Below are positions 54 to 41,840 of a stretch of DNA of 43,429 nucleotides, in pieces. Position 1 is the stretch's first letter. Each line of letters opens with the position of its first letter. The notes beneath the pieces were generated by a model. The model had not been told where the DNA came from and made no database searches. It worked only from the letters and a program-made list of their open reading frames with translations. Made by a program: the position numbers and the translations under genes. The stretch is from a virus, in the IMG/VR virus record IMGVR_UViG_3300005842_000021, positions 1-43,429 of that record. One strand, given 5' to 3'.

Positions 54-296
54 CTAATCATCTTGAACTTCTATCTTCCGATAGATGCCAAGCACATTCT
101 CATTTACAATCTCATCAATTGCACTCTCTATCGCTGCATCCTGGTCAGCCAAGGACAGGTCGTCTGAAGTTTTGATGATGCGAGCGAGGAGGCCCGAGCT
201 GTGATAGCCAGCTGCTTCATCAAAAGCAAACCACTCATCAAAGTTAGTGAAAGGATTGAAGGGATTGTCGACAGTCGTCAGCATGTGTAGTGTCAT
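54..296 (-). CDS. Small acidic protein downstream of the RNA-polymerase-like gene (unknown function)
   Basis: 80 residues, acidic and soluble, with no signal or membrane segment. The N-terminal half is rich in aromatic residues (NPFNPFTNFDEWFAF near residues 11-25). The C-terminal half looks helical (ADQDAAIESAIDEIV). The ATG at 296 has a strong ribosome site (AGGAGGGATT). It is the last gene of the leftward operon and begins 8 bp after the RNA-polymerase-like gene. Similar short proteins with a DNPF.PF..FDEW start are remembered from Gram-positive phages, but no function is known to me. Its fixed place behind the polymerase gene makes an accessory or inhibitor subunit possible; that is inference only. 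Confidence 0.85.
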   Translation of the reverse strand: MTLHMLTTVDNPFNPFTNFDEWFAFDEAAGYHSSGLLARIIKTSDDLSLADQDAAIESAIDEIVNENVLGIYRKIEVQDD

Positions 297-304
297 AATC
301 CCTC

Positions 305-2953
305 CTACTTCAGTCCTTCTTTAAGAGTAGTTAGTGACACACCTAGTTGTGCTGCCACCTCTGCTTGAGTGAAGCCAGATGCTAGCATAGATAGGGCCCT
401 TTGTTTCTTTGCGCTAGTCATCTCAAGTCGAGACTTAGGTGTCGCTAGATGCTTGACCCTGTCCAAATCAGCATGAGTTAAAATCTGATTGAGTTTGTGA
501 TTGGTAATGGCTCCTGCCTGGATAGCTTCCCATTCAGACTCGGTTATTTCAATACGTTCTTTCTTAGCCCCGGTTCTTGTACGAGCCTCAGCTAGAGCTT
601 GAGATTTCACTCTCTTGAGGTCGGCGGGGTCCATATCGGGGTTTGCTTGCCTCTTTAGGGAGACTATGGCGTTTGCTAGGACCTGGGCGTTTCTTTCAAG
701 AGGTGCGTTTCTCAAAGCAAGATTCAACTTAGCATTGAGGGAGGCTACTTGCTTTGCATAGGCGATCTTTGCAGCAGGGGAGTAAACAACAGACTTAGTA
801 TTTACCGATGCTTTCCTTGCCTGATTAGCAAGAGCTTTCAGTTTATTAGAATGATCAGCATAGATGGATTCGATCTTAGTTCCAGAAGAAAGAGAGTGTG
901 CATCCTCCGTCTCTGCTAACTTCTTAGATCTCTCCTTAACTACAACAAGCTTGCCTTCTTTGTTAACAAACTGTCGGCCAGTCGGCTCAAATACTTTCTT
1001 TCCAGTAACCCTGTCTATTGGTCCGCCTTTAGCAGCAGACCTAGGCTTCTGCTCAGGTATGTCGATCCTAGACTTAGCTCTCGAGATCAGAGTCTTAGCA
1101 CCAGCATCAACACCACCTTGGTACTTCAACTTCAATTGGGGAATTCCATTGTCAATGGATGATTGTTTCCAATTGAGGCCATGCTTTTCAGCATCGATAA
1201 CAACCATCGAATGACGAACAGCTCGAGCAAGTTCATTAGGGTTAGCACCACGAATAGTCATGTCTGTGATTAGATTAGAGACGTCTCCCATTGCGATAGC
1301 CTTCTCGCGAGGAGTCATCTTATGCATACCGTCATAGCCAGGGTAAGAAGACTGAGGATCAAAGTCTTTCAAGCCAGCTAAGGCAGGAGCAGTCTTAATC
1401 TTACCATGATTGTTTGGTATCACGATCACAGTATCGCCATCGAAGTCAGCACCCGATAGCCGAGCGGCAACTTTACTATTAATTCCAATGGCGTTAGGTG
1501 CATTGCCTAATGTCTGTCGTGCTTCTCTATTCTTATTGTTGACAGTCAATTCCGGAAGTTCAAACTTACCACCATGTGGGTGACGAATCAAAACCACTCT
1601 TTCGCCATTGTTATAGTTAGGCGCATAGACTTCATTATCCTTCAATGAATTAATGGGAAGGATAACATGCGACTTCTGGCGAGGTAGAGCAGCAGCCTTT
1701 AGATGGACTGCTGATGAATCAGCATCATCAGCAAAGGCATCGAGAAGTCTTCGCTTAACCGCAGGATTCGTAAGAGCCATGATCTCGTCAAGCTCACGCT
1801 GCTTACGATCATACGTCATGTCAAGTTGAGACTTCGCTAGGCTGGGGCTTTGCTTCGACAAGAACTGAGAAGACAAAGTCTTGGACCAACGTTCCCAGTC
1901 TGCTTCCTCATTGACTAGGTTCATGGCAGAAGTTACTTTGTGGTTCCCATGCTTGTCAGGCTCAGTGATTTGACGAATCACCGCACCAAAGGGATTATCT
2001 GGATCTGAACTCAATGGTTTGAATGCGTCTAGTTTATTGCCTGTGTTGTGCTTACTCGTATTCACTACAAGATCTACGCCTGGAGGAAGATCGCTCTTAT
2101 AGGTGGCCATACCTTTAATGTAGTGAGTTTTATCTACGGCGATACGAACCTGAGCGTACTGATTGCTACCCAGAGAAAGATCTTTAATCCCTGGGCGAAC
2201 ATAAATTACACCATCAGCTTCTTTGCCGCCGTCTTCACCATAGCGAACTTGGATCCTTTTTGAGTTAACCGAAATGGGTGGGTGAATGCCGAAGTAACTA
2301 CGACCGCCATCATCAGATACCTGAGTAACTGATTTGATTTCATTTCGATTCCTGAATACTTCGCCATAAGGAGTTCCAGGAGCAGCAAGAACTTTGACTG
2401 TAGTTTGCTTTCCAGTGCCTAGTTGTGGCACCTTAACATAATGAACAGTGTAGCCTTCTTCTTGAAGACGAGCAACTGCGGTTCTTACCTTAGTGTCACT
2501 CACTCCAAGATGATGCTCGATACCTACACCAACATCGACATACTTTTTCTCTGCTACTTGATCCTTCAACATGTTCGCTGTAGATTCAAGAATATCTGCT
2601 TTGTCTTTCTGGCCAGGGGCAAGCAAAGCACGAACAGATGATTCATTAAGATTCATCCTCTTGCCAATAGCCACGTTTCCGTAACCCTTATCTTTCAGTC
2701 GCTGAGCCATACCAATAAGCTCTTGACGCTGTTGGTTTTTGGCAATCGACTTGGCCGCTCGAAGTTGAGTAGTAGTTATACCGAATCCAGAAGCGATATC
2801 AGTCTCACTCATACCCTCACGACGAAGACCGTCGACAGTGTCAAGGAAACTCTTATTTCTGGTACTTTGATTTCCACCAGATCCCCACGGGTAGCGACCG
2901 GAACGTCGCAGAATTCCATAGTGCGCGAGATAGTCTTCCTCGCTAATGATCAC
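305..2953 (-). CDS. Single-chain RNA-polymerase-like protein (YonO/QDE-1 type double-psi beta-barrels) with HTH segments and a HYG..WG N-terminal tag
   Basis: 882 residues. The catalytic loop ADFDGD (502-507) matches the Mg-binding NADFDGD of RNA polymerase beta-prime. It is preceded by VVLIRHPHGG (453-462), equivalent to the beta-prime LNRxPxLH segment. Upstream, AVDKTHYIKGM (272-282) followed by VDLVVN (293-298) resembles the beta-subunit barrel with its two lysines. After the active site, AVRHSMVVIDAEKHG (578-592) resembles the AVDxxKTG region of QDE-1-type RNA polymerases. Helix-turn-helix-like segments lie near residues 37-66, 78-110, 138-165 and 849-880. The first 26 residues contain HYGILRRSGRYPWGSG. 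The start is GTG at 2953 with GGAGGTG upstream, overlapping the nuclease stop as GTGA. The length is close to YonO (roughly 900). Polymerase homology is well supported; template, promoter and timing are not. Confidence 0.85.
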   Translation of the reverse strand: MIISEEDYLAHYGILRRSGRYPWGSGGNQSTRNKSFLDTVDGLRREGMSETDIASGFGITTTQLRAAKSIAKNQQRQELIGMAQRLKDKGYGNVAIGKRMNLNESSVRALLAPGQKDKADILESTANMLKDQVAEKKYVDVGVGIEHHLGVSDTKVRTAVARLQEEGYTVHYVKVPQLGTGKQTTVKVLAAPGTPYGEVFRNRNEIKSVTQVSDDGGRSYFGIHPPISVNSKRIQVRYGEDGGKEADGVIYVRPGIKDLSLGSNQYAQVRIAVDKTHYIKGMATYKSDLPPGVDLVVNTSKHNTGNKLDAFKPLSSDPDNPFGAVIRQITEPDKHGNHKVTSAMNLVNEEADWERWSKTLSSQFLSKQSPSLAKSQLDMTYDRKQRELDEIMALTNPAVKRRLLDAFADDADSSAVHLKAAALPRQKSHVILPINSLKDNEVYAPNYNNGERVVLIRHPHGGKFELPELTVNNKNREARQTLGNAPNAIGINSKVAARLSGADFDGDTVIVIPNNHGKIKTAPALAGLKDFDPQSSYPGYDGMHKMTPREKAIAMGDVSNLITDMTIRGANPNELARAVRHSMVVIDAEKHGLNWKQSSIDNGIPQLKLKYQGGVDAGAKTLISRAKSRIDIPEQKPRSAAKGGPIDRVTGKKVFEPTGRQFVNKEGKLVVVKERSKKLAETEDAHSLSSGTKIESIYADHSNKLKALANQARKASVNTKSVVYSPAAKIAYAKQVASLNAKLNLALRNAPLERNAQVLANAIVSLKRQANPDMDPADLKRVKSQALAEARTRTGAKKERIEITESEWEAIQAGAITNHKLNQILTHADLDRVKHLATPKSRLEMTSAKKQRALSMLASGFTQAEVAAQLGVSLTTLKEGLK

Positions 2954-4357: not shown

Positions 4358-4526
4358 CGGTGTGATACCTCTTCGTGGGGGTAGTTTTGTCAAATGTCAA
4401 ATGTCAATTCCATTTCAAAACTTTCTGTACACGTACACTTTGTATGTGTTCTATACACATACAAAGTATCATCGCGCGTAGGGTTTAGTTCGAGAACCAC
4501 TTTTGACAAATCGTGGTCAATTTGTC
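4358..4526 (-). promoter_or_regulatory. Non-coding control region with a 13-bp perfect inverted repeat and TGTCAAA repeats
   Basis: This 169-bp gap between the helicase gene and the NUMOD/HNH-like gene contains no gene. Positions 4437-4449 (ACTTTGTATGTGT) are perfectly complementary to 4455-4467 across a 5-nt centre. Near-tandem TGTCAAA heptamers run from 4389 to 4406, and related TTTGACAAA and CAATTTGTC copies lie at 4501-4527. No A- or T-run follows the palindrome on either side, so it looks more like an operator or RNA-structure element than an intrinsic terminator. No convincing -35/-10 pair was found. Confidence 0.6.
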
Positions 4527-5751: not shown

Positions 5752-5778
5752 CCTGAGCCCCTGTTACAGGGCTCGAGG
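5752..5778 (-). terminator. Intrinsic terminator (copy 1 of an exact 36-bp repeat)
   Basis: GAGCCC (5755-5760) pairs with GGGCTC (5769-5774), extended by TG/CA, followed on the minus strand by GGTTTTAT. The 36 bp 5746-5781 recur exactly at 17048-17083, with a diverged copy at 19923. It ends the 88-residue cassette and lies right before the helicase ribosome site. Confidence 0.8.
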
Positions 5779-6049: not shown

Positions 6050-6070
6050 GGTCGTCCTTTCGGTAGTAGG

Positions 6071-6100
6071 GTCTCATTAAAGCCCATGTAATCTGTGCGA
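6071..6100 (-). promoter_or_regulatory. Cassette promoter 1
   Basis: Minus strand: TCGCAC, 13 bp, TTTAAT (6081-6076), GAGAC. It drives the 88-residue membrane-protein gene. The ATTACAT spacer segment is shared with several other copies. Confidence 0.8.
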
Positions 6101-6109
6101 AAAAAAAGC

Positions 6110-6410: not shown

Positions 6411-6430
6411 CGGGGTTCCTTTCTATAGGG

Positions 6431-6460
6431 GTCTCATTATAAGCTATGAAAACCCTGCGA
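6431..6460 (-). promoter_or_regulatory. Cassette promoter 2
   Basis: Minus strand: TCGCAG, 13 bp, perfect TATAAT (6441-6436), GAGACCCCTAT. It drives the 86-residue gene. The preceding terminator ends only about 10 bp upstream. Confidence 0.85.
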
Positions 6461-6469
6461 AGGCAAAAA

Positions 6470-6711: not shown

Positions 6712-6729
6712 GGTACTCCTTTCGTAGGG

Positions 6730-6759
6730 GTCTCATAATATGGTGTGTATAACTCGCGA
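6730..6759 (-). promoter_or_regulatory. Cassette promoter 3
   Basis: Minus strand: TCGCGA, 13 bp, TATTAT (6740-6735), GAGACCCC. It drives the 61-residue gene. Confidence 0.8.
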
Positions 6760-6765
6760 AAAGAA

Positions 6766-7008: not shown

Positions 7009-7027
7009 TTCGAATCCTTTCATAGGG

Positions 7028-7057
7028 GTCTCACTATATGCTATGCTTTATTCGCGA
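7028..7057 (-). promoter_or_regulatory. Cassette promoter 4
   Basis: Minus strand: TCGCGA, 13 bp, TATAGT (7038-7033), GAGACCCC. Its upstream end is 2 bp from the 3' end of tRNA-like RNA 1. Confidence 0.8.
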
Positions 7058-7058
7058 G

Positions 7059-7140
7059 TGGGGTGGCCAGGAATCGAACCTGGATCAGATGAGGGCTACC
7101 GCCGAAGCCGACACCGCCTCTTCCATTGAGGTACCACCCC
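7059..7140 (-). tRNA. tRNA-like RNA 1 with an extended anticodon arm; no assignable anticodon
   Basis: Read leftward, GGGGTGG pairs perfectly with CCACCCC (7 bp), followed by discriminator A. U8 and A9, a D arm CCTC-AATGGAA-GAGG containing GG, a 4-nt variable loop (TGAT) and a T arm CCAGG-TTCGATT-CCTGG are all standard. The segment between D arm and variable loop is 28 nt, not 17. Ten positions on each side (GGTGTCGGCT and AGCCCTCATC) pair as 4 bp, a 2x2 mismatch and 4 bp, closing an 8-nt loop TCGGCGGT. No U sits in the usual position 33, so no amino acid can be assigned. CCA is not encoded. A routine tRNA search may miss it or call it a pseudogene; the preserved tertiary landmarks argue for a folded RNA. 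Confidence 0.7.
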
Positions 7141-7253
7141 GTGGAGACAGAGGGCCCGCGCATCACTTCTCGCAACAGATCGAGAGTGTTACTTTCCCGC
7201 TGTCTCGCTTCTGGGTTACATGATAACACACCTCCTATATGTAGTACCATGCG
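7141..7253 (-). other. Spacer between the two tRNA-like RNAs with a strong ribosome site before a start-stop ATGTAA
   Basis: This 113-bp interval has no supported gene. On the minus strand AGGAGG is followed, 9 bp later, by ATG and immediately by TAA (about 7213-7218). A GTG in another frame opens a reading frame that runs through tRNA-like RNA 1 and is treated as spurious. No promoter or terminator hairpin was seen, so both tRNA-like RNAs could be cut from one precursor. Confidence 0.45.
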
Positions 7254-7336
7254 TGGGGTGACCGGGATTCGAACCCGGATAGAATAGCAACTACGGCTAC
7301 TAGTCGCCATTGCCTCTACCATTGAGGTACCACCCC
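7254..7336 (-). tRNA. tRNA-like RNA 2 with an 11-bp anticodon stem; no reliable anticodon
   Basis: The GGGGTGG/TCACCCC acceptor (last pair G-U), discriminator A, U8, A9, D arm CCTC-AATGGTA-GAGG, variable loop CTAT and T arm CCGGG-TTCGAAT-CCCGG are canonical, and A15 can pair with U48. The anticodon region is a continuous 11-bp helix, AATGGCGACTA with TAGTTGCTATT including three G-U pairs, closing a 7-nt loop GTAGCCG. Some G-U pairs would be A-C mismatches if read from the plus strand, so the fold belongs to the leftward RNA. If the loop were read normally the triplet would be AGC, but the stem is six pairs too long for ordinary decoding. No CCA is encoded. The 5' end directly follows a U-rich tract. 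Confidence 0.72.
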
Positions 7337-7420
7337 AAAAAAGAAAAGAACAAGGCTCTGCAGTGGATACAGAGCCTTGCCCTTTACACCCGCCAGCTCG
7401 AGGTTTCTCTACCCGGCGGG
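7337..7420 (-). ncRNA. Probable small RNA between cassette promoter 5 and a terminator hairpin
   Basis: A cassette promoter (7421-7448) is followed by only about 45 bp before a terminator (7352-7378) with a U-rich tail (7337-7349). No ribosome site or usable start codon is present. The transcript would hold two hairpins: CCCGCC (7420-7415) with GGCGGG (7394-7389), and the 9-bp terminator stem. Alternatively it is the leader of tRNA-like RNA 2, since the U-tract runs straight into the tRNA-like 5' end. Confidence 0.6.
7352..7378 (-). terminator. Intrinsic terminator in front of tRNA-like RNA 2
   Basis: AAGGCTCTG (7352-7360) pairs with CAGAGCCTT (7370-7378). The minus-strand tail is a 13-nt pyrimidine run of T and C. 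The stem is identical to that at 6110-6136, with a different loop. Confidence 0.85.
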
Positions 7421-7448
7421 GTCATTATACCCTATGTAATTTTCGCGA
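7421..7448 (-). promoter_or_regulatory. Cassette promoter 5
   Basis: Minus strand: TCGCGA, 13 bp, perfect TATAAT (7429-7424), then GAC. It lacks two bases of the usual GAGAC. It drives the probable small RNA and perhaps the tRNA-like RNAs. Confidence 0.8.
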
Positions 7449-7455
7449 GGCTAAA

Positions 7456-7633: not shown

Positions 7634-7652
7634 AATGATCCTTTCGTTGGAG

Positions 7653-7682
7653 GTCTCATTATAACAGTTGTAAAACACGCGA
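7653..7682 (-). promoter_or_regulatory. Cassette promoter 6
   Basis: Minus strand: TCGCGT, 13 bp, perfect TATAAT (7663-7658), GAGACC. It drives the 34-residue microprotein gene. Confidence 0.85.
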
Positions 7683-7728
7683 GACCGAAATTAACAACCC
7701 GTGTAACTTATATGCGTTGGGTGGTCAA

Positions 7729-7761: not shown

Positions 7762-7846
7762 CTCCGTAACACAGACGCCGGCGATCCTGCCCTTAGGCTC
7801 TATTATTCATGAGCGGTCGGGTGATAACACGGTAGCGTGGATTACG
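7729..7846 (-). ncRNA. Probable small RNA of about 115 nt
   Basis: Cassette promoter 7 (7847-7876) is followed by about 85 bp with no ribosome-site/start pair; the only short frame (ATG at 7810, five codons) has no ribosome site. It ends at a strong hairpin: AACAAGACAC (7729-7738) with GTGTCTTGTT (7752-7761). The same promoter-terminator layout encodes proteins elsewhere, so a stand-alone RNA is the simplest reading. Confidence 0.55.
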
Positions 7847-7876
7847 GTCTCATTATTATGCATGTTTTTCTTGCGA
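7847..7876 (-). promoter_or_regulatory. Cassette promoter 7
   Basis: Minus strand: TCGCAA, 13 bp, AATAAT (7857-7852), GAGACC. Its upstream end is 3 bp from the stop of the 106-residue gene (7879). Confidence 0.78.
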
Positions 7877-7878
7877 AA

Positions 7879-15502: not shown

Positions 15503-16393
15503 TCAAATCTTGTCGTAGATGACGCCGTCGACGTTGAAGTCCAACCAGACTGCGTTGTTGTCTCCCTTGACGAACCGCATCCCGGAATACCGATCTCCCT
15601 TGAAGACACCGAAGTCGACGTAGTTGTCCCCGTCACACCCGATCAGCCAGCCAACGACCGCGCCTTCCTTCGACCGTGGCATCCCGAGCATGTCGTATAC
15701 CTCATTCAGGAACAGATGCCCCACGGCCCGAAGACGATCGTTCGCATAATTCTGTTGACATTGCAGGAACATTTGGTTGTATCCAGGAGCCGGCGACCAG
15801 CTCGAGCATGTCTGGTCAAAGACCCGGGCATAAATGGAAGGAAGCCCGTCGATTACGTCCTTAACCCTTTCAGTCTCGGGACCGTTCTCACCCTCGAAGA
15901 CGATCTCCCGCTCTTCGCCACCGTAGCGGAACTCCCGATCCTTTTCCTCGCCCAGGGCTGAAACCACCCGCTGACGATACTCCCGGAATCCCCTGTCCAG
16001 GACTGTATATGCGGCCATCAAAGCTGTATTTCGCCGAGTGAGAATCACATGCGATCCAGTCAGTGCGGCAATGGACAGCCCACCAAGTACAAGAGCCGGT
16101 GCGTACATCCTTGCAATCGTGGCTCCGGTACGGATGAAGATGAGCATCTGGTCGTTGCGGCGATCGTCATCTGAGTAATTCGGGTGCTCGATGGTCCTGG
16201 TCTTTTCCAGATCCTCCTGAGCCTCCTCAAGTACTTCCTCGAGCTTCAGGGTGGCTCGGCTGGCTAGAACTACGGTTCCCACTACCCCAGCCACACCAGC
16301 CGCGAAGAGAATCGCTGGTGAATGCTTTCGCATGACGAGTACCTGACGAGCGGTTTTGCTTGTGATTGCATTCTTAATGATGCTGAGTTTCAC
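15503..16393 (-). CDS. DUF6353-like membrane protein, copy 1
   Basis: 296 residues, GTG start at 16393 with AAGGAGC. An N-terminal hydrophobic helix (ILFAAGVAGVVGTVVLASRAT, about 28-48), a charged coiled segment (EEVLEEAQEDLEKTR), a second pair of helices (MYAPALVLGGLSIAALTGSHVIL, about 95-118), then a soluble C-terminal domain with DMLGMPRSKEGAVVGW and an acidic beta-rich end. This layout matches the DUF6353 family of actinophage membrane proteins. A paralogue lies at 18245-19039 with the same order (RATxKxxEx, NTALMAAYTVLDRGFREYR versus AALAAAYTISEKAFDEYR). Function unknown. Confidence 0.8.
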   Translation of the reverse strand: MKLSIIKNAITSKTARQVLVMRKHSPAILFAAGVAGVVGTVVLASRATLKLEEVLEEAQEDLEKTRTIEHPNYSDDDRRNDQMLIFIRTGATIARMYAPALVLGGLSIAALTGSHVILTRRNTALMAAYTVLDRGFREYRQRVVSALGEEKDREFRYGGEEREIVFEGENGPETERVKDVIDGLPSIYARVFDQTCSSWSPAPGYNQMFLQCQQNYANDRLRAVGHLFLNEVYDMLGMPRSKEGAVVGWLIGCDGDNYVDFGVFKGDRYSGMRFVKGDNNAVWLDFNVDGVIYDKI

Positions 16394-17336: not shown

Positions 17337-17354
17337 TGTGGTCCTTTCTGTAGG

Positions 17355-17384
17355 GTCTCATTAAAGGAAGTGTTTTTTTCGCGA
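17355..17384 (-). promoter_or_regulatory. Cassette promoter 8
   Basis: Minus strand: TCGCGA, 13 bp, TTTAAT (17365-17360), GAGACCC. It drives the 84-residue gene. Confidence 0.8.
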
Positions 17385-17421
17385 AGGTAGGGGCGCACAT
17401 TTTCTCAATTGTCGTTTAAGA

Positions 17422-18244: not shown

Positions 18245-19039
18245 TTACATTAGTCGATTGTAATGCCGAATTGGGGCTACAGTGAATTCTACAGATATAC
18301 ACGGCTTACCCGTATCTGTGAGAACAGGTACGAAATGCAGTTCAAGCAACTTGTCGAGGTTCCAACCCACCTCGTCTGACATTGACGTGTGAGGGAGACC
18401 TATGGAGTCATACAAATCCGAAAGTGATGCGAACGAATCATGTATGACTTCATGGTTGATATCGTTCTCGGCTTTCCTGAGGGTCTCAAGGTCTGATAGG
18501 AAATATCTTCCGGTGAAAGCCTCGTAGCACAGATGACTACCACCGAATGTCCCTAAAACTTGACTCTCTTCCGGAGGTAAACGATCAAGCCGATCTTTAG
18601 CTATCTCTGCTCTGGCAGCTTCCTCTCTCTTCGCCCCCATCTTCTCGACTATCTTCGTCCGGTACTCGTCGAAGGCCTTCTCTGAGATGGTATACGCGGC
18701 AGCAAGGGCTGCTGCACGACGGGATCCCACACGGTTCGCACATATGATTGCTGCGAGGGCGACCACGGCCGTTACTGTAGGTGGTATGTACAGTTTCCAT
18801 ACGAGTGCAATCTTTTCCTTCGGCTCGAGCTCATCCGTGTTGAAATCAGGAAGCTGTTCAGCCACTATTTGGTCGAATTCTTCTTGTTCTTTACGAAGAA
18901 TTTCAGCAGCCTTAAACGTAGCGCGGCCCGTCAAATATGCGGTCGTCAATACACCAGCGACACCAATCGAGGTCATAATTGCTGGGGAGTTATCGACAAC
19001 CAACTTCTCAACACGACGAGCAACATCACTCAATGTCAC
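18245..19039 (-). CDS. DUF6353-like membrane protein, copy 2
   Basis: 264 residues from the GTG at 19039, which has AGGGGAG at 7-bp spacing; the longer frame to 19081 runs through the preceding gene. Same design as 15503-16393: N-terminal helix (IMTSIGVAGVLTTAYLTGRATFKAAEIL), charged helix (RKEQEEFDQIVAEQ), central helix (YIPPTVTAVVALAAIICANRVG), AALAAAYTISEKAFDEYRTKIVEKMG, then a soluble C-terminal domain (SFASLSDLYDSIGLPHTS). Two paralogues in one genome suggest hetero-oligomers or divergent timing. The start overlaps the upstream membrane gene by 14 bp. Confidence 0.8.
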   Translation of the reverse strand: MTLSDVARRVEKLVVDNSPAIMTSIGVAGVLTTAYLTGRATFKAAEILRKEQEEFDQIVAEQLPDFNTDELEPKEKIALVWKLYIPPTVTAVVALAAIICANRVGSRRAAALAAAYTISEKAFDEYRTKIVEKMGAKREEAARAEIAKDRLDRLPPEESQVLGTFGGSHLCYEAFTGRYFLSDLETLRKAENDINHEVIHDSFASLSDLYDSIGLPHTSMSDEVGWNLDKLLELHFVPVLTDTGKPCISVEFTVAPIRHYNRLM

Positions 19040-19286
19040 GATACAACTCCCCTTTTCTAACCCCAAAGAACCAGTAATCAATTCCCGTGTCTTCGACCGA
19101 TTCTTCGAAACGCTCCGTCAATACTGCTACCGACAAGAGTTTCGGATCTACTCGATGGGTGGTTCTGTTGACTGCCCATATGCACAGAAGCAACGCCAAC
19201 ACGATAAGGCCGATCGAGCCGTACACTTTGAACATGATTGGCCATAGGTCGCTGAGATTTTCTGAGCCTCCTGGGCGATTCTCCAT
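19026..19286 (-). CDS. Small single-span membrane protein overlapping its neighbour
   Basis: 86 residues. The ATG at 19286 has GGAG 8 bp upstream. Residues 18-40 (MFKVYGSIGLIVLALLLCIWAVN) form a clear transmembrane helix, followed by a soluble tail with VAVLTERFEESVEDTGIDYWFFG. It overlaps the 106-residue frame at 19078-19398 by about 200 bp in another frame. Both starts have good ribosome sites, so both may be made, or the region may be a frameshifted single gene. The stop overlaps the DUF6353 start. Confidence 0.72.
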   Translation of the reverse strand: MENRPGGSENLSDLWPIMFKVYGSIGLIVLALLLCIWAVNRTTHRVDPKLLSVAVLTERFEESVEDTGIDYWFFGVRKGELYRDIE

Positions 19287-19869: not shown

Positions 19870-19890
19870 GATGGTCCTTTCGGTAGTAGG

Positions 19891-19920
19891 GTCTCATCAT
19901 AGTGCTTGTAATTCTTGCGA
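19891..19920 (-). promoter_or_regulatory. Cassette promoter 9
   Basis: Minus strand: TCGCAA, 13 bp containing ATTACA, TATGAT (19901-19896), GAGACCC. It drives the 52-residue gene. Confidence 0.8.
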
Positions 19921-19928
19921 GGATAAAA

Positions 19929-20185: not shown

Positions 20186-20204
20186 TTCAATCCTCTCTGT
20201 GGGG

Positions 20205-20234
20205 GTCTCACTATAGAACGAGAAATTCTTGCGA
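20205..20234 (-). promoter_or_regulatory. Cassette promoter 10
   Basis: Minus strand: TCGCAA, 13 bp, TATAGT (20215-20210), GAGACCCCC. It drives the 73-residue gene. Confidence 0.8.
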
Positions 20235-20278
20235 GGGTTTTCAGAAAATCCTTCCGCGGGAATTTTTGGAAAAGAAAA

Positions 20279-20526: not shown

Positions 20527-20544
20527 TGTCAATCCTTTCGTAGG

Positions 20545-20574
20545 GTCTCACTATAGGATGTGTATAATTTGCGA
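20545..20574 (-). promoter_or_regulatory. Cassette promoter 11
   Basis: Minus strand: TCGCAA, 13 bp, TATAGT (20555-20550), GAGACCC. It drives the 67-residue gene. Confidence 0.8.
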
Positions 20575-20577
20575 AAA

Positions 20578-20702: not shown

Positions 20703-20719
20703 GACATTTCCTTTCGTAG

Positions 20720-20749
20720 GTTTCATACTATCCCATGTTAAATTCGCGA
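20720..20749 (-). promoter_or_regulatory. Cassette promoter 12
   Basis: Minus strand: TCGCGA, 13 bp, TAGTAT (20730-20725), GAAAC in place of GAGAC. It is the most divergent copy and drives the 28-residue gene. Confidence 0.7.
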
Positions 20750-20784
20750 GGCAAAAAATATAATCCATGCGTAAAGCTAAGAAA

Positions 20785-21216: not shown

Positions 21217-21236
21217 ACAATCTCCTTAAAATAGGG

Positions 21237-21266
21237 GTCTCATCATAGGAGATGTTTACAGCGCGA
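21237..21266 (-). promoter_or_regulatory. Cassette promoter 13
   Basis: Minus strand: TCGCGC, 13 bp containing AAACAT, TATGAT (21247-21242), GAGACCCC. It drives the 123-residue gene and is the first copy met after the structural and lysis genes. Confidence 0.8.
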
Positions 21267-21275
21267 CCCTTTTTG

Positions 21276-31581: not shown

Positions 31582-32373
31582 CTAAGCCGAACTAACTGTG
31601 TAACTATCGGAATCGATAAATACGGCGGTGGGGCTGGTAATTTGGAACGTCGTGTCATCGAGCATTATTACTGAATCACCGAAACCGAATACGGTGAATG
31701 TACCATCTCCGTTATCTGTAACTACAATTCCATCGCCAGCATCAAAGTACAACAGAACCTCTGCCGGAGTCAGAAGTCTAGGCGCTTCAGTTTCTGTTCC
31801 ATAAAGCACATCTTCGATGTTAGATAAAACCAGAGGAAGAGTCTGAGTTGAATCGATTATCAGATGCGCTGTGTTTTTATAACCAGGAACTACTGGCGGA
31901 GTTGCGGTAATATCCCAATTAAATTCTTCCGGGTTCGCTGAGTCATTCAAAGTTATATGGGCGTGAGCTGAAGGGGCAGCGAGAGCATTGTAAACTAGAT
32001 GAATCTTGTACCCGTAATCAATACCTTCAGCATCGTTGCCCAATATGGTTCGAAACGAGAAACCAAATGATTGACGACGTTGTCTAGTCACCGAAAGTCC
32101 TGGGAATGGCTGTGCGTTTCCATCCAGTATAGCAAACTCATCTGGCCTGTATAACGCCCTGATTGTAGCTTCAAATTCTTCAGGAGTTGCAAGATTCAGG
32201 AATTTCTCTCCATCAAGATAAAATCCTTTTGCTTCTCCTCCAGCAACATTCTCTGAGACAGAGATTAGCCCCTGCCACGCAACACCGGGTTGGTCGGTGG
32301 GGTAAAGAACGCCTCGGTCAACGCCAGTTTCGAAATTACGATTTCCGAGCGCGTCCCAAGTCAATCGTGACAC
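31582..32373 (-). CDS. Major tail protein paralogue 2
   Basis: 263 residues, GTG start at 32373 with GAGGAG. LTWDALGNRNFETGVDRGVLYP, AWQGLISVSENVAGGEAKGFY, RRQSFGFSFRTILGNDAEGIDYGYKIHLVYNA and HITLNDSANPEEFNWDI match the larger paralogue at 32955-33827 block by block. The C-terminal 60 residues are different (DNGDGTFTVFGFGDSV...), an alternative surface domain. Two different tube proteins in one genome may form a mixed tube, or one may be a minor cap. Confidence 0.8.
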   Translation of the reverse strand: MSRLTWDALGNRNFETGVDRGVLYPTDQPGVAWQGLISVSENVAGGEAKGFYLDGEKFLNLATPEEFEATIRALYRPDEFAILDGNAQPFPGLSVTRQRRQSFGFSFRTILGNDAEGIDYGYKIHLVYNALAAPSAHAHITLNDSANPEEFNWDITATPPVVPGYKNTAHLIIDSTQTLPLVLSNIEDVLYGTETEAPRLLTPAEVLLYFDAGDGIVVTDNGDGTFTVFGFGDSVIMLDDTTFQITSPTAVFIDSDSYTVSSA

Positions 32374-32954: not shown

Positions 32955-33827
32955 TTAAGAGAACGTGATCAACCAGTCATCGTCGACCAGAGTCGGGAAC
33001 TTGTAACCCGTATCCGGCCGAGCCTTGACCAGAATGTTCTCGGTGATCGGGCCGTATGCACCAGAAGGCACATCTCCAACGCCCACAACCGAGTAGATGA
33101 CGCCCGTGACCGACGGAATGGTCACAATGTCTGTCGTCGAGTTGTAAGTTGGAGCAGTCGGCGAAACCTGCGTGACCGAAGCGGAGAAGATAGCAATCAC
33201 ATCGTCCGGCATCGGGAGCGATGGGTCAGACCCGACCGTTCCGTAGAGCAGAGCTTCCAACGTAGCCAACGCCGTCGAATCCACCAATGTAGAATCGATG
33301 CACATGTACGAAGTCGGCTTCATATCAGTAACAGGAACCGGAACCGTCCAGAACTCCCAACTAAAGGTGATAGCCTCGGGGGAGTCGTTGATGGTTGCGT
33401 AGGCCTTCTCCGAAGGGGCCGCAGTAGCTCCCCAAACAAGATGCAGCTTGTAGCCGAGTTCGGTCTGCTCAATCTCATTACCAACTCGAGTACGGTAGGA
33501 AAAACCGAAAGGCTTCCGCGGCTGTTGACCGACATAAACGCCAACTTCAGGTGCCACCGTACCATCGCATTCACCGAACTGAACCGGGTAGGTGAATGCT
33601 TCGATGGTTCCAGCGAACTCCTCGACTGAAACCAAGTTCAGGTACTTAATGTTATCCGCGTATTGAGCGGTAGCTTCGGCACCCGTAGGAGCTTCGGTCA
33701 CAGTGGTCAGACCATTCCACGCAAACCCGGTGTCATAGACACCATCCGTGATCCGGTACAGAACACCCTTGTCGACACCAGTCTCGTACAAGTGTTCGCC
33801 GACGCCATCCCAGGTGAGGGCTGTCAC
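32955..33827 (-). CDS. Major tail protein paralogue 1 with added C-terminal domain
   Basis: 290 residues from the GTG at 33827 (AAGGAGAAAGAA upstream); the longer frame to 33884 overlaps the previous gene. The core matches 31582-32373 (LTWDGVGEHLYETGVDKGVLY; PRKPFGFSYRTRVGNEIEQTELGYKLHLVWGA). The last 75 residues (PTAPTYNSTTDIVTIPSVTGVIY... KARPDTGYKFP... DDWLITF) form a separate beta domain that also ends the capsid protein (34475-36505). Such a domain is likely exposed on the virion. Confidence 0.82.
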   Translation of the reverse strand: MTALTWDGVGEHLYETGVDKGVLYRITDGVYDTGFAWNGLTTVTEAPTGAEATAQYADNIKYLNLVSVEEFAGTIEAFTYPVQFGECDGTVAPEVGVYVGQQPRKPFGFSYRTRVGNEIEQTELGYKLHLVWGATAAPSEKAYATINDSPEAITFSWEFWTVPVPVTDMKPTSYMCIDSTLVDSTALATLEALLYGTVGSDPSLPMPDDVIAIFSASVTQVSPTAPTYNSTTDIVTIPSVTGVIYSVVGVGDVPSGAYGPITENILVKARPDTGYKFPTLVDDDWLITFS

Positions 33828-33837
33828 TTCTTTCTCC

Positions 33838-34143
33838 TTAGAAATATAGCACGAATACGTCGTGATTGAGGTTATCTGCCGCAAAAGCTCTATTAAAGTT
33901 GCTTTGCGGGAGAGAGGCGACTTTTAACGGAATCTCACTGTCGGGATTCCTATCAATTACCGTCACCATATAACGTGTGGTTAGGCGATACGGATTATTA
34001 TCGGCGAACGCTGGCTGAATATCGTCTCTTTTATAAACGATAGCAGGATACGCCATTTGCAAATTAGTTGGAGGTTGAAAATATACATTCTCAGAACCGA
34101 GAAGAGTTTCCAAAAGTGTCTGCAAATCAAGCCGTCGGGCCAT
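33838..34143 (-). CDS. Tail terminator-like protein
   Basis: 101 residues from the ATG at 34143 with GGGAGGTG; a GTG at 34152 overlaps the ribosome site. PPTNLQMAYPAIVYKRDDIQPAFADNNPYRLTTRYMVTVIDRNPDSEIP is a pattern of small siphovirus tail terminator proteins, which cap the tube at the head side. It stands between the head closure and the major tail genes, the expected place. Confidence 0.75.
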   Translation of the reverse strand: MARRLDLQTLLETLLGSENVYFQPPTNLQMAYPAIVYKRDDIQPAFADNNPYRLTTRYMVTVIDRNPDSEIPLKVASLPQSNFNRAFAADNLNHDVFVLYF

Positions 34144-34474: not shown

Positions 34475-36505
34475 TTAAGGCGTCGCGGTGAAGGTCCACT
34501 GGTCTTCGGCGTTCGACTCGAAGTAGTAACCCGAGTTTGCAGTCGCGTCGATAGTCCATGGCGTACCAACCGGGACGGTGTACGGGCTACCACCGTTGGT
34601 GACCGTAGTCACGCCGTGCTTGTAAGTGACACCAGTAACAGTCGGAATGGTCAGCTCACCGGTCTCCGGGTCGAAGGTCGGCTTGGTCGGAGTGGCCAGA
34701 ACGTCAGTCGAAGCCACAGGAACAATAACGATAGCGGCCTTGTACTTCACGAGCGCGCCCGAGAGACGAGTCTCGTCCAGGTACTTGTACTGGTTGTAGT
34801 CAATGTCGAAGAAGTCGAAGAAGTTGACTTCCCCGCCACGGTCAGTACCAACGTTGTAGTCAGCCAGGTTCACCATGATACCCAGAAGAGTACCAGCGTT
34901 AACCAGCTCTTCCATGGCCTCAACCTCAACAATGTCGGCCACGTTAAGAGCAGAAACCAGCTCGGCCTTGTTCTGGTAGAGACGACGGCCGGTAGTGTCC
35001 TTGACCAACATCATTCGAGTTGCCACTGAGTTGGTGGTGTAGAGCGTTGGCGTACCAGTACCCCGGTAGAAACGCCGACCAAGCAGAAGCTCGTCAATGA
35101 GTTCAGCATAGCTGGAAGAAGCGTCAAGAAGATTGACCCGAAGAGTCGTCACATACATCTCGTGGTCGTGAAGAATCGAACGAATGCCAGACCCATCAAC
35201 CGAACCTGCCGGGTCCTTCACCTTGTCCGGGTCATCCGGGTCGCGACCGTCGCCAAAGAGGATAGCCCGAGCGATTTCCTCCTCCAACATCAGCCGCAGT
35301 TCACCCTTGATCCAGGCGACAGCATCGAAGTCAGTGATGTCCAGGACGTCATCGCGGTCAAGCTTCTGCTTCTTGTAGATGGTGGTGGGAGTGGTCTCTC
35401 GCTTGGTTACTCCGAAGAACTCTTCCTTCTTCAACGAACCCTTGATGTAACCCTTGGCGCGGGCAGCGTCCTGGGTGATGTCAGCAAAGATCGTCTTGAC
35501 TCGAGAGAACGGCGAGCGACGAACACCGTTGATGACGTTGGCCACCCACTCGGTGCGGCGCTTGATGAATTCAGGAGTATCGGTGAGAGTCCGGGCATTC
35601 GGGAAGAGGACGTCGATGTCCTCGATCCCGTGGGCGAGAGCGTACTGCTCAACAGCGTGCTTGAGTGAGCCACTCTTCACTGCGGCAGCGAAAATACCGC
35701 TCATCTCGTCGTGAGAAAGGGTGGTGGATACGACCCCACCCTGCGTTCCGCCGTTCTGCTCGAAGACGTTGCGCGTCACGGTGCCATTTCCTTCCTGGTG
35801 GGTGAGGTCTCCCTCAGTGGTTTGTTCCTCCGCAGGCTTCTCTGTTTCTTTGGAGGGCTCTTCAACTACTTCTTCCTCAGACTTCGTCTCTGAGTGAGCG
35901 GCTTCACCGGCCTGAGCTTGCTCAAGTGCGGCGCCGATCATGTAGTGAACGACAGTTTTCTGTTCATCAGAAAGGCTGTCATAAACTTCTTGGATTGTGG
36001 CGTGCTCTAGCTCTTGATCTTCAACCTGCTCAAACTCAAGCGGTAGACCAGTGTGGATGATTGCTTCGTCGGCCAGTTCCTCGAGGTCTCCGCCCTCGCC
36101 ATGCTGGACAGCAACGTAATCAATCTTTGCTCCTGGGTTTGCTCCCGCAAGAGTAAGACTGACCTCACGAATCATACCGTGCAGGACCTGCTTACTCTTA
36201 CCAATCAACTTCTCGACAAGCTGATTTGCCCAGATTGACAAAGAATCTAGATCCTTGTGCTGAACCAGAGCCTTGGCATTCAACCCCTGCTTCGTACTGT
36301 TGAAGTAACCGTAGCAGTAAACGCCTTCGTCACGAGCTTCAAGAACCGCGTGACCTAGAACATTCTCGGGACTGCTGTGACCATGCTGCCAAACCAGCGG
36401 AACTTGCACGCCATTCATGTGTTGGAAAGCCTGCGGCGAGATAGTTCTACCGTCGGAGCATACGAGACCAGTCTTGGTAGCCCATCCGCTGAAATCAGCT
36501 TCCAT
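34475..36505 (-). CDS. Prohead protease-major capsid protein fusion with C-terminal decoration domain
   Basis: 676 residues. The N-terminal 150 residues carry HK97-type prohead protease features: LVWQHGHSSPENVLG (His41 region) and HGMIREVSLTLAGANPGA (Ser116). A highly acidic Glu-rich linker (about 195-240) follows, then the capsid domain (about 245-600: FEQNGGTQGG, LFPNARTLTDTPEFIKRRTEW, TPTTIYKKQKLDRDDVLDITDFDAVAWIKGE, ARAILFGDGR). The last 70 residues (PTKPTFDPETGELTIPTVTGVTY... SGYYFESNAEDQW) are a separate beta domain shared with the major tail protein. The linker may act as scaffold and be cut off. ATG at 36505 with AGGAGGG. Confidence 0.88.
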   Translation of the reverse strand: MEADFSGWATKTGLVCSDGRTISPQAFQHMNGVQVPLVWQHGHSSPENVLGHAVLEARDEGVYCYGYFNSTKQGLNAKALVQHKDLDSLSIWANQLVEKLIGKSKQVLHGMIREVSLTLAGANPGAKIDYVAVQHGEGGDLEELADEAIIHTGLPLEFEQVEDQELEHATIQEVYDSLSDEQKTVVHYMIGAALEQAQAGEAAHSETKSEEEVVEEPSKETEKPAEEQTTEGDLTHQEGNGTVTRNVFEQNGGTQGGVVSTTLSHDEMSGIFAAAVKSGSLKHAVEQYALAHGIEDIDVLFPNARTLTDTPEFIKRRTEWVANVINGVRRSPFSRVKTIFADITQDAARAKGYIKGSLKKEEFFGVTKRETTPTTIYKKQKLDRDDVLDITDFDAVAWIKGELRLMLEEEIARAILFGDGRDPDDPDKVKDPAGSVDGSGIRSILHDHEMYVTTLRVNLLDASSSYAELIDELLLGRRFYRGTGTPTLYTTNSVATRMMLVKDTTGRRLYQNKAELVSALNVADIVEVEAMEELVNAGTLLGIMVNLADYNVGTDRGGEVNFFDFFDIDYNQYKYLDETRLSGALVKYKAAIVIVPVASTDVLATPTKPTFDPETGELTIPTVTGVTYKHGVTTVTNGGSPYTVPVGTPWTIDATANSGYYFESNAEDQWTFTATP

Positions 36506-37790: not shown

Positions 37791-38150
37791 TCACGATGCC
37801 TTGCGGGCTTGATCAGTTTTAGCTGCGACATTCTTAACAAGACGATTATTCCTAGTAACAACGACAAGGCCGATAGGGCCTCCTAACATGGTTGCCGTTA
37901 CCTTTTCGCCTAGCGTCATTCTAGCCGCAGTTACTCTATCTTCGCTGGTATTCAACTTCTTAGTTGCGACCGACACCTGTTTCGGTGTCTTAGCCTTATG
38001 AAGCTGAACAACTCTAGCTTCTTGTCTCTTACGAGCAGAGTGAATCTCCGTGGCTGATGGATGGGATTTCCGAACGCCCCATCGCTGGCCTTTAACACCG
38101 TGATGAGCTAATTCCTCTAGGGAGGGCTTCTCATCACCATAAACCTTCAT
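37791..38150 (-). CDS. Small basic protein carrying the H-x-G...R-W-G tag
   Basis: 119 residues, strongly basic and helical after residue 30. Near the N-terminus stands LAHHGVKGQRWGVRKS (14-29), the same short motif found in the 2H phosphoesterase (40591-41466) and, in diverged form, at the start of the RNA-polymerase-like protein. The remainder (SARKRQEARVVQLHKAKTPKQVSVATKKLN) is a Lys/Arg-rich helix, with a hydrophobic helix near the end (GPIGLVVVTR). It lies between head-fibre-like and portal genes, so an internal head protein is likely. Confidence 0.75.
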   Translation of the reverse strand: MKVYGDEKPSLEELAHHGVKGQRWGVRKSHPSATEIHSARKRQEARVVQLHKAKTPKQVSVATKKLNTSEDRVTAARMTLGEKVTATMLGGPIGLVVVTRNNRLVKNVAAKTDQARKAS

Positions 38151-40590: not shown

Positions 40591-41466
40591 CTACTTCTTG
40601 AGCACGAGACCGACAAGCTTAGTTGCTTGGTCAGCCGCAAGCTTTGTCGCTTGCTGTTTTCCAACATTGACAAGTACGTCACCAGTAAACTTCCCGCCCG
40701 CGCGCAGGAGTCTAATTCCTCTCGGAGTTGGCGCGACACTTGCGTATTGCTTTTCCAGATTCATTCTGGTGATAAGAGCTTGAAGCTCATTGTTGGTAAG
40801 CGCTTTGCTGCCATGCTTCCTAGCTTTCTTCGCAGAAGCCTTAGCTGTGGCATGATCTTGAGACTCGTTAGGAGAGCCTCCACCTTCCGTTGAAGACTTG
40901 CGAACACCCCAGCGCATTCCTTTAACACCGAAATGCTGAAGAAATTCCTCACCGAGGCCGGCCATACTGATATCATCCATTTCGTCCTTCAATAAGAACG
41001 TAGGTCCCTCGTAATTCCCAGTCCAAAGAGCGACGCGATCAAACACAACCCAAGTAATACCCGGGTAATCACGATTATCAGGCTTGGCTGGAGAGTTAGG
41101 ATAGCCTAAAGTCAGATGAGGAATATACTCTTCGTACTGAGGAGTGGAGTTGTAGGCGTCCTTGATGTGCGGTTCGCCTAGCAAATAAGTGCTCAGATCT
41201 TCGAGCGTCCGATAACAATAGTTATGATCGAAGAATAGAACATCAGCTTCGTTAGGTCCTAAAGTCCCACGTCGATCAACGCTAAGACCGAATCGATTTA
41301 GAGATGTAGCTGCAACGTGCTCAAGATACTCAGCCATTGCAACGACGTTCTTGTCTGGAGTCATCTCACCGAGATTACACAACGTCAGATGAGGAACTTT
41401 CTCGCTAGAAATCTTCCAGACATAATCGTCTTCTCTAGGAATTGCTACAATTACAAGTTGGCTCAT
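40591..41466 (-). CDS. 2H phosphoesterase fused to a tagged internal-head-type domain
   Basis: 291 residues from the ATG at 41466. Residues 1-155 have the two H-x-T motifs of 2H phosphoesterases, PHLTLCNLG (25-33) and PHLTLGYPN (116-124), spaced about 90 residues apart. Members cleave 2',3'- or 3',5'-cyclic phosphates or 2'-5' bonds; phage Acb1, which destroys CBASS signals, belongs to this fold. Residues 175-190 hold FLQHFGVKGMRWGVRK, the tag seen also in the 119-residue protein. The C-terminal 100 residues are basic and helical with an Ala-rich end. The position between connector and terminase indicates a virion context. Substrate unknown. Confidence 0.78.
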   Translation of the reverse strand: MSQLVIVAIPREDDYVWKISSEKVPHLTLCNLGEMTPDKNVVAMAEYLEHVAATSLNRFGLSVDRRGTLGPNEADVLFFDHNYCYRTLEDLSTYLLGEPHIKDAYNSTPQYEEYIPHLTLGYPNSPAKPDNRDYPGITWVVFDRVALWTGNYEGPTFLLKDEMDDISMAGLGEEFLQHFGVKGMRWGVRKSSTEGGGSPNESQDHATAKASAKKARKHGSKALTNNELQALITRMNLEKQYASVAPTPRGIRLLRAGGKFTGDVLVNVGKQQATKLAADQATKLVGLVLKK

Positions 41467-41480
41467 ACCTCCTCCCTCCT

Positions 41481-41840
41481 CTATACTACTGGAGCGACCC
41501 AAGCAGTCATCTCACGGACGGTATTCAAACGCCATTCAAGCTCTTTGATCTGATGATTGACTGCCTCGAGGTGATGAGCAGTTTGCGGAGGGTCAAATAA
41601 CAACTTCACTTGAAGGGTGACATAGGTCTTAACTGAGTTCAGCTTCAGGTCGGTTCCAAGGAAGTCATCCCACGTCGCCGTATCGTCTTCGATGGCAAAA
41701 CCACCCTCAGGACCGATGCCCAGCTGATCGAGCGTCGAGAATACACCGTTAATGTACATGAGAATATCGGCATCGAAGGCTGTGTAGCTTTCGTCGAGAC
41801 CAAGATTCTTCTTAGTGCTTGTGAGAATGCTTTCTGCCAT
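41481..41840 (-). CDS. Head-tail connector (gp6-like adaptor)
   Basis: 119 residues from the ATG at 41840; a GTG at 41849 is too close to the ribosome site GGGAGG. AESILTSTKKNLGLDESYTAFDADILMYINGVFSTLDQLGIGP followed by ATWDDFL and KLLFDPP is the standard pattern of gp6-like connector proteins, which sit under the portal. In most phages the gene follows the capsid; here it precedes the terminase. C-terminus helical (NHQIKELEWRLNTVREM). Confidence 0.78.
   Translation of the reverse strand: MAESILTSTKKNLGLDESYTAFDADILMYINGVFSTLDQLGIGPEGGFAIEDDTATWDDFLGTDLKLNSVKTYVTLQVKLLFDPPQTAHHLEAVNHQIKELEWRLNTVREMTAWVAPVV

Follow-up and report, generated by a model that had tools for sequence, protein, structure and literature searches.

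Background

The closest described relatives of the system considered here are single-chain RNA polymerases built around two double-psi beta-barrels (two-barrel polymerases). YonO of Bacillus phage SPbeta is a DNA-dependent enzyme that transcribes the late genes of that phage, and its promoter was undetermined as of 2017 (PMC5467207). Thermus phage P23-45 has two such enzymes, namely gp96, a virion protein fused to the tape measure, and gp64, which is not a virion protein; the virion enzyme was paired with an AT-rich motif on pre-early genes through location, chromatin immunoprecipitation sequencing (ChIP-seq) and co-occurrence. The virion polymerases of crAss-like phages are fused to large proteins (PMC10770324). 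Among eukaryotes, QDE-1 and RDR2 are polymerases of RNA interference, and QDE-1 also uses DNA (PMC2950127). The enzyme from which all cellular RNA polymerases descend may have looked like these single-chain two-barrel proteins. Here, I describe a family that bears on how so small an enzyme might find a promoter without a sigma factor, starting from a gene at positions 305-2953 on the minus strand of the virus record IMGVR_UViG_3300005842_000021 (IMG/VR; 43,429 bases, the whole of which was analysed and is hereafter called the window), together with a promoter-like DNA element that accompanies this gene. All positions given for features of the window refer to the minus strand.

The open reading frame (ORF) starts with GTG and encodes 882 residues with no internal stop. 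Its product belongs to PHROG 4291 (profile match E 0, 1322 bits, residues 3-882 against profile positions 6-906 of 909), a family labelled 'RNA-dependent RNA polymerase'. Homologues sharing about 38-65% identity were found by tblastn in 250 phage records, the alignment spanning 80% of the length or more in 249 of them; the hosts include Streptomyces, Arthrobacter, Gordonia, Rhodococcus, Microbacterium, Curtobacterium, Bifidobacterium, Faecalibacterium and Lactococcus. A family-profile scan confirmed at least 514 relatives in IMG/VR. Existing annotations call the homologues helix-turn-helix (HTH) protein, RNA-dependent RNA polymerase (RdRP) or hypothetical, so the family is already annotated by homology, and 'RNA-dependent' is probably the wrong name for it. 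A description of its promoter, function or structure was not found in the accessible literature, and neither such a polymerase nor such promoters are mentioned in papers on phages of Arthrobacter, Gordonia and Rhodococcus. The family itself is known by name; the promoter code, its tie to the polymerase gene and the packaging hypothesis are new as far as that literature shows.

The nearest systems compare with the locus as follows. The actinophage and Lactococcus phage 1706 proteins that bear the RefSeq and PHROG name share its gene order and a companion gene. YonO is likewise a single chain, its family (PHROG 8308) matches residues 435-514, and its gene too lies just upstream of late genes; yet it forms a separate PHROG and serves late genes, whereas here the element marks early ones. 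QDE-1 and RDR2 give the best fold match over the two-barrel core, but the phage protein falls below the Pfam RdRP cut-off and carries an array of HTH modules. Neither of the two eukaryotic enzymes is known to have an HTH array or a promoter element. The P23-45 enzymes gp96 and gp64 are single-chain two-barrel phage polymerases as well, and there too promoter motifs were assigned from location and co-occurrence; the window enzyme, however, is not joined to a tape measure as gp96 is, and it bears a short tag and HTH modules of its own. Finally, gp66 of the crAss-like phage phi14:2 is also a single-chain two-barrel RNA polymerase, but it is not among the fold matches listed for the window enzyme.

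Predicted catalytic core

The translation carries ADFDGD at residues 502-507 (positions 1433..1450), with VVLIRHPHGG ahead of it, both as claimed in the initial annotation, which had read the gene as a single-chain polymerase with its own DNA-binding modules. Across an alignment of 91 family members G501, A502, D503, F504, D505, G506 and D507 are invariant, and the match is therefore not due to chance; D503, D505 and D507 make up the DxDxD metal-binding motif of two-barrel RNA polymerases. An upstream DK...KG had been pointed to as well: its 'DK' (in DKTHYIKG) is not conserved, most members having DGTHYLKG, and the invariant residue is K280 of KGMA, a candidate for a basic active-site residue of the second barrel. 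The downstream segment claimed, HSMVVIDAEKHG, is found at residues 581-592 and overlaps a long predicted helix (residues 572-591, positions 1181..1240) that contains HSMVVIDAEK and, judging by its position in the model, may be the bridge helix. The region with the catalytic motif and this following helix (residues 421-612) is 58% identical to the homologue of Lactococcus phage 1706.

The AlphaFold model of the protein (mean predicted local distance difference test, pLDDT, 81.4; predicted template modelling score, pTM, 0.68) was compared with solved structures. The best Foldseek matches were QDE-1 (E 1.7e-9), gp62 of phage P74-26 and maize RDR2. A second aligner gave RDR2 (Z 18.0) and QDE-1 (Z 17.9) over about 370 residues, then the phage enzymes P23-45 gp64 (Z 13.7) and P74-26 gp62 (Z 13.3), and the largest subunit of RNA polymerase II at about Z 10. 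All matches lie within residues 224-716 or a part of them, and this core (positions 806..2284) superposes on QDE-1, RDR2 and gp64; the match to two-barrel polymerases is one of the core fold as a whole. Solved polymerase relatives surface by fold alone; searching solved structures by sequence, with the protein or its profile, matched only HTH and unrelated proteins. A profile search linked residues 435-514 to PHROG 8308 (E 2.2e-6), of which YonO is a full-length member. Of the comparisons suggested at the outset, the one with QDE-1 agrees in fold; aligning the family to YonO, as one sequence, with hhalign gave neither a core match nor full-length profile similarity, and the crAss-like polymerase was not among the matches listed.

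The fold, the invariant metal-binding motif and the PHROG 8308 match support the single-chain two-barrel reading, and on model and alignment the 882-residue protein is very probably such an RNA polymerase, most likely a DNA-dependent one.

Predicted HTH modules

Four HTH modules are predicted. The first (residues 36-88, positions 2690..2848) follows from the secondary structure of the model and from an HTH match to phrog_3855 at residues 31-65; the second (residues 93-136, positions 2546..2677) from the model and weak HTH matches. Both are helix triplets in the AlphaFold model. A winged HTH follows at about residues 137-192 (positions 2378..2545; model and weak GntR and HTH_24 matches), and a C-terminal one occupies residues 847-882 (positions 308..415; 847-881 in the model), where the model agrees with Pfam HTH_23, which scores above its cut-off. 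The claim that three HTH segments precede the core and one follows it is hence borne out at the level of predicted structure, with Pfam backing the last. The HTH units are only 29-39% identical to those of the phage 1706 homologue, and their identity drops to 23-36% in the most distant of eight compared phages.

A promoter-like element on the early genes

A repeat search disclosed a family of 34-43 nucleotide repeats in intergenic gaps of the window, which was then turned into a weight matrix. The element reads TCGCR-N6-ACA-N5-TATARTGAGACC with fixed spacing (written out, TTCGCRAGANTTACANNNNCTATARTGAGACCC). With this matrix the gene strand yields 13 sites and the opposite strand none, where chance alone would give about 0.5 and shuffled genomes gave 0-1. 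All 13 lie in the early half, from 21.3 to 6.0 kb, and the late region (43 to 21.3 kb) has none. A start codon with a Shine-Dalgarno-type sequence lies 21-26 nucleotides downstream of 11 sites; of the other two, one stands ahead of two tRNA genes and the other lacks a clear follower. This stretch of the genome is also rich in terminator-like hairpins (29, as against 13.8 expected) and appears organised in terminator-promoter-gene units.

A scan for sigma-70 promoters (a -35 box and a -10 box separated by 16-18 bp) found none of the 13 sites and no excess overall (17 found, 16.6 expected). The upstream TCGC is not a -35 box, since it lies too near TATAAT, and conservation extends beyond TATAAT into GAGACC with the spacing fixed.

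Sites 1 (21234..21267) and 2 (20717..20750) were found by the weight matrix; the repeat search and the matrix both found site 3 (20542..20575), site 4 (20202..20235), site 5 (19888..19921), site 6 (17352..17385), site 7 (7844..7877, the one with no clear start codon after it), site 8 (7650..7683), site 9 (7416..7449, ahead of both tRNA genes), site 10 (7025..7058), site 11 (6727..6760), site 12 (6428..6461) and site 13 (6068..6101), the final one ahead of the block of genes that runs from the helicase to the polymerase. A terminator-like hairpin detected by the hairpin scan (5755..5774) stands between the gene of site 13 and that block. As to the tRNA genes, the one that ARAGORN reports at 7253-7336 is tRNA-like and has an anticodon of four bases (ctag), being possibly a frameshift suppressor or a decayed tRNA; a tRNA-Ala adjoins it at 7058-7140.

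Association of the element with the polymerase gene

The element recurs in polymerase-bearing phages of Streptomyces, Rhodococcus, Arthrobacter and Gordonia, and in diverged form in phages of Bifidobacterium and Lactococcus. There are 6 sites in Scap1, 6 in RosaAsantewaa, 14 in ReqiPoco6, 9 in Circum, 10 in Secretariat and 7 in BitterVaud1; the Lactococcus phages 1706 (12 sites) and P078 (10 sites) retain TTTTACA-N5-CTATAGT/AAT. It was thus present in all nine polymerase phages examined, the window included, in each on the gene strand alone, over six named host genera plus the host of the window. Mean top scores were 40-51 in the real genomes as against about 20-32 in shuffles, on opposite strands and in the phages c2 and phiC31, which lack the polymerase. 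In ReqiPoco6 one site lies immediately ahead of tRNA-Ala; the element would therefore serve untranslated RNAs too, as expected of a promoter.

The association holds in both directions. Among 39 long IMG/VR records selected by the exact motif, 38 have a polymerase match (37 of them strong); conversely, motif sites are present in every one of 14 records selected by the polymerase alone, with nearly all of the sites on a single strand, and the pattern in reverse gave 5 hits in 39 records. Likewise, 20 of 25 records selected by the tag of head proteins (see below) have a polymerase match, one of the 20 being weak. In 84,980 bacterial genomes (257 Gb) the exact pattern occurs in 5 stretches, about 2 being expected by chance from a base-count estimate. 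One of the five is QHXL01000552.1 (L471), a 4.1 kb contig from an Acidobacteria genome bin with five motif sites ahead of small ORFs, which is probably a misbinned piece of phage.

These counts make it likely that the element is the cognate promoter of the polymerase. The Lactococcus phages are the most different in both the HTH units and the motif, and such divergence in the same order is suggestive, though only that, of a pairing between the two.

The N-terminal tag and the particle

The protein opens with a stretch predicted to be disordered (residues 1-33 in the AlphaFold model; pLDDT 32-38 over residues 1-30), in which the alignment reveals a near-invariant tag, LAHYGILRRSGRYPWGSG, at residues 9-26 (positions 2876..2929). 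The tag pattern, L.HYG[IT].R.SGRYPWGSG, is 72-100% identical to that of the window in seven of eight compared phages, and is more conserved than the HTH units. A conserved segment within a disordered region may well bind a partner. A shorter form, L.HYGVKGMKWGV, occurs on proteins of the head module, two of them in the window, which tag comparison places at 40591..41502 (EEFLQHFGVKGMRWGVRKS) and 37791..38150 (EELAHHGVKGQRWGVRKS, N-terminal). In IMG/VR the long form is essentially limited to this polymerase, head-module proteins having only the shorter HYGVKGMKWG form. That SGRYPWGSG might sit on many kinds of protein was considered and rejected: 215 of 228 ORFs with the tag carry GADFDGD, and nearly all the others are cut by contig ends. 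A literature search for the letters of the tag found no paper.

By eye, the protein at 40591-41502 has two HLTL motifs ahead of its tag and resembles 2H phosphoesterases; if the tag loads cargo, it could be an injected enzyme.

Database labels point to the particle as well. In the deposit EU081845 the homologue from Lactococcus phage 1706, orf75, bears the name 'structural protein', which RefSeq later changed; a second 1706 protein with a related tag (LQHRGVIGMRWG), orf7, has a structural label too, and gp106 of ReqiPoco6 is called a structural protein by similarity. The 1706 labels reportedly come from mass spectrometry of particles. On this evidence, carriage of the polymerase in the particle is favoured, by a modest degree, and the presence of early promoters would then make sense at once.

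Proposed mechanism and alternatives

The reading that I consider moderately probable as a whole, from sequence and model, is that of a DNA-dependent two-barrel polymerase carried in the virion by means of its tag and reading a private promoter through its own HTHs. The N-terminal HTH array and the C-terminal HTH would recognise the element, transcription would start at or near the GA following TATART, and early mRNAs and tRNAs would be initiated with no sigma factor. During assembly the short tag would bring the polymerase into the particle, to be ejected with the DNA and to transcribe early genes at once, like the virion polymerases of N4, crAss-like phages and P23-45. What the analysis shows is the fold match, the invariant catalytic motif, the predicted HTH units, the conserved tag, and the element with its link to the gene; that the protein makes RNA, on which template, that it reads the element and where it starts, that the motif-bearing genes are expressed first, and that the enzyme is packaged and acts early are inferred from these. 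Sigma-free promoter finding, as had been proposed initially, gains indirect support from the element, which is private, fixed in spacing, without a -35 box and present alongside the gene in phages of different host phyla. A matching start signal common to relatives from very different bacteria suggests that such viruses carry in or produce a transcription system of their own and need not borrow the promoter-recognition factor of the host. A wider version is tentative, and I would not put it as high as even: a one-protein virion transcription system with a portable promoter code, recognisable in Actinomycetota phages and diverged in step in Bacillota phages, in which the 18-residue tag would be part of a general packaging signal loading other phage proteins too. 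The family is large and occurs in cultured phages of easy laboratory hosts, now with an explicit promoter sequence and a packaging prediction; if the proposal is true, it corrects a misleading database name in many phage genomes and could yield a compact transcription tool for Actinomycetota.

Several points weigh on the other side. The motif and the gene could both mark one phage lineage, neither reading the other, and their association, strong as it is, fits 'read by the polymerase' and 'inherited with the polymerase' alike. Five tag-selected records and one motif-selected record have no polymerase gene, although the helicase and exonuclease genes that normally adjoin it are missing from them as well, and these records may be fragmentary. 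One of them (G049, L272; 43,769 bases) has 10 motif sites, and neither a polymerase gene nor the helicase, exonuclease and companion genes were found in it; either the record is incomplete or the phage has lost the module. As regards packaging, the 1706 'structural protein' is a deposit annotation, and the resemblance between tags could be due to convergence or serve another purpose.

The alternative that survives best, although unlikely, keeps the same polymerase and promoters and leaves the enzyme out of the particle: it would be made after infection from an operon transcribed by the host, and would take over early or middle genes as P23-45 gp64 does. The gene lies among replication genes and not in the head module, the closest solved phage folds (gp64 and gp62) are non-virion enzymes, and the terminator-like hairpin parts the helicase-to-polymerase block from the last motif site. 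However, no clear host-type promoter was found ahead of that block (8 found, 6.9 expected), and both the orf75 deposit label and a tag better conserved than the HTH modules, resembling those of the head module, speak for the particle.

A further alternative draws on the position of the gene. As the initial annotation stated, it closes an operon that runs leftward, behind a helicase gene and nuclease genes (HNH, endonuclease and exonuclease); the position, deemed unusual there, is in fact ordinary. The gene order of the window agrees with that of linear genomes such as Scap1 and ReqiPoco6, and the operon end is therefore where the linear map stops. The polymerase is the last large gene in the linear genomes of relatives, with just a small conserved ORF between it and the end of the record, and in ReqiPoco6 an annotated 3' cos overhang lies right at the polymerase and small-ORF end. 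In BitterVaud1, whose record is opened elsewhere, the two are directly followed by a large forward operon with the longest genes, presumably structural, as judged by size and order in this unannotated record. Once the map is circularised, then, the polymerase gene immediately precedes the late genes, an unremarkable place for it; in SPbeta yonO is likewise upstream of the terminase and portal genes.

It is considerably less probable that the enzyme is a YonO-like polymerase of late genes, expressed just before the late module, with the motif sites serving another factor. Its place on the circular map, shared with yonO, would fit this, and YonO does transcribe late genes (PMC5467207). In the window, though, the late region is devoid of motif sites, the associated element being on early genes, and full-length profile similarity to YonO was not found.

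To a similarly low degree of probability, the host RNA polymerase could read the element, TATAAT being its -10, with the aid of a phage activator or repressor, leaving primer or small-RNA synthesis or the like to the HTH protein. TATAAT is indeed the sigma-A -10 consensus, and many phages use the host polymerase. Nevertheless, the missing -35 box and the lack of any excess in the sigma-70 scan, the fixed-spacing conservation into GAGACC, and the sharing of the element by Actinomycetota and Bacillota phages while it is almost absent from bacterial genomes all argue otherwise.

Lastly, the RefSeq and PHROG name would make the protein an RNA polymerase that copies RNA, which is highly improbable: its nearest solved folds are the RNA interference polymerases QDE-1 and RDR2, but it scores 14.1 bits with Pfam RdRP (PF05183) against a curated cut-off of 23.8, QDE-1 itself uses DNA too (PMC2950127), YonO is DNA-dependent, and a double-stranded DNA template is what the HTH modules and the association with a promoter suggest.

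Companion gene and neighbouring sequences

The gene directly downstream of the polymerase in 79 of 87 loci encodes, at 54..296 of the window, a protein of 80 residues of PHROG 4303 with an invariant MLTTxDNP..P...W..D. It is a candidate partner of the polymerase. Its model is confident (pLDDT 91); a resemblance to an omega-type subunit, the idea behind the modelling, was not borne out, none of the structural matches listed exceeding Z 3.1, and no convincing Pfam family was found.

Next to it, at 19-46, TTGACA-16-GAAAAT points to the genome end, which on the circular map means into the late module; it is possibly a host-type late promoter, or else a chance occurrence. In the gap between the helicase and HNH genes (4430-4475) there is an inverted repeat, CTTTGTATGTG..CACATACAAAG.

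Other genes of the window

Elsewhere in the window, two families are represented twice: PHROG 2152, at 15503-16393 and 18245-19081, and PHROG 2645, a major tail protein family, at 31582-32373 and 32955-33884. The gene at 34475-36505 encodes a head maturation protease whose C-terminal half matches a major head protein profile, that is, a protease-capsid fusion, such as has been described for cluster AM phages (PMC5513430).

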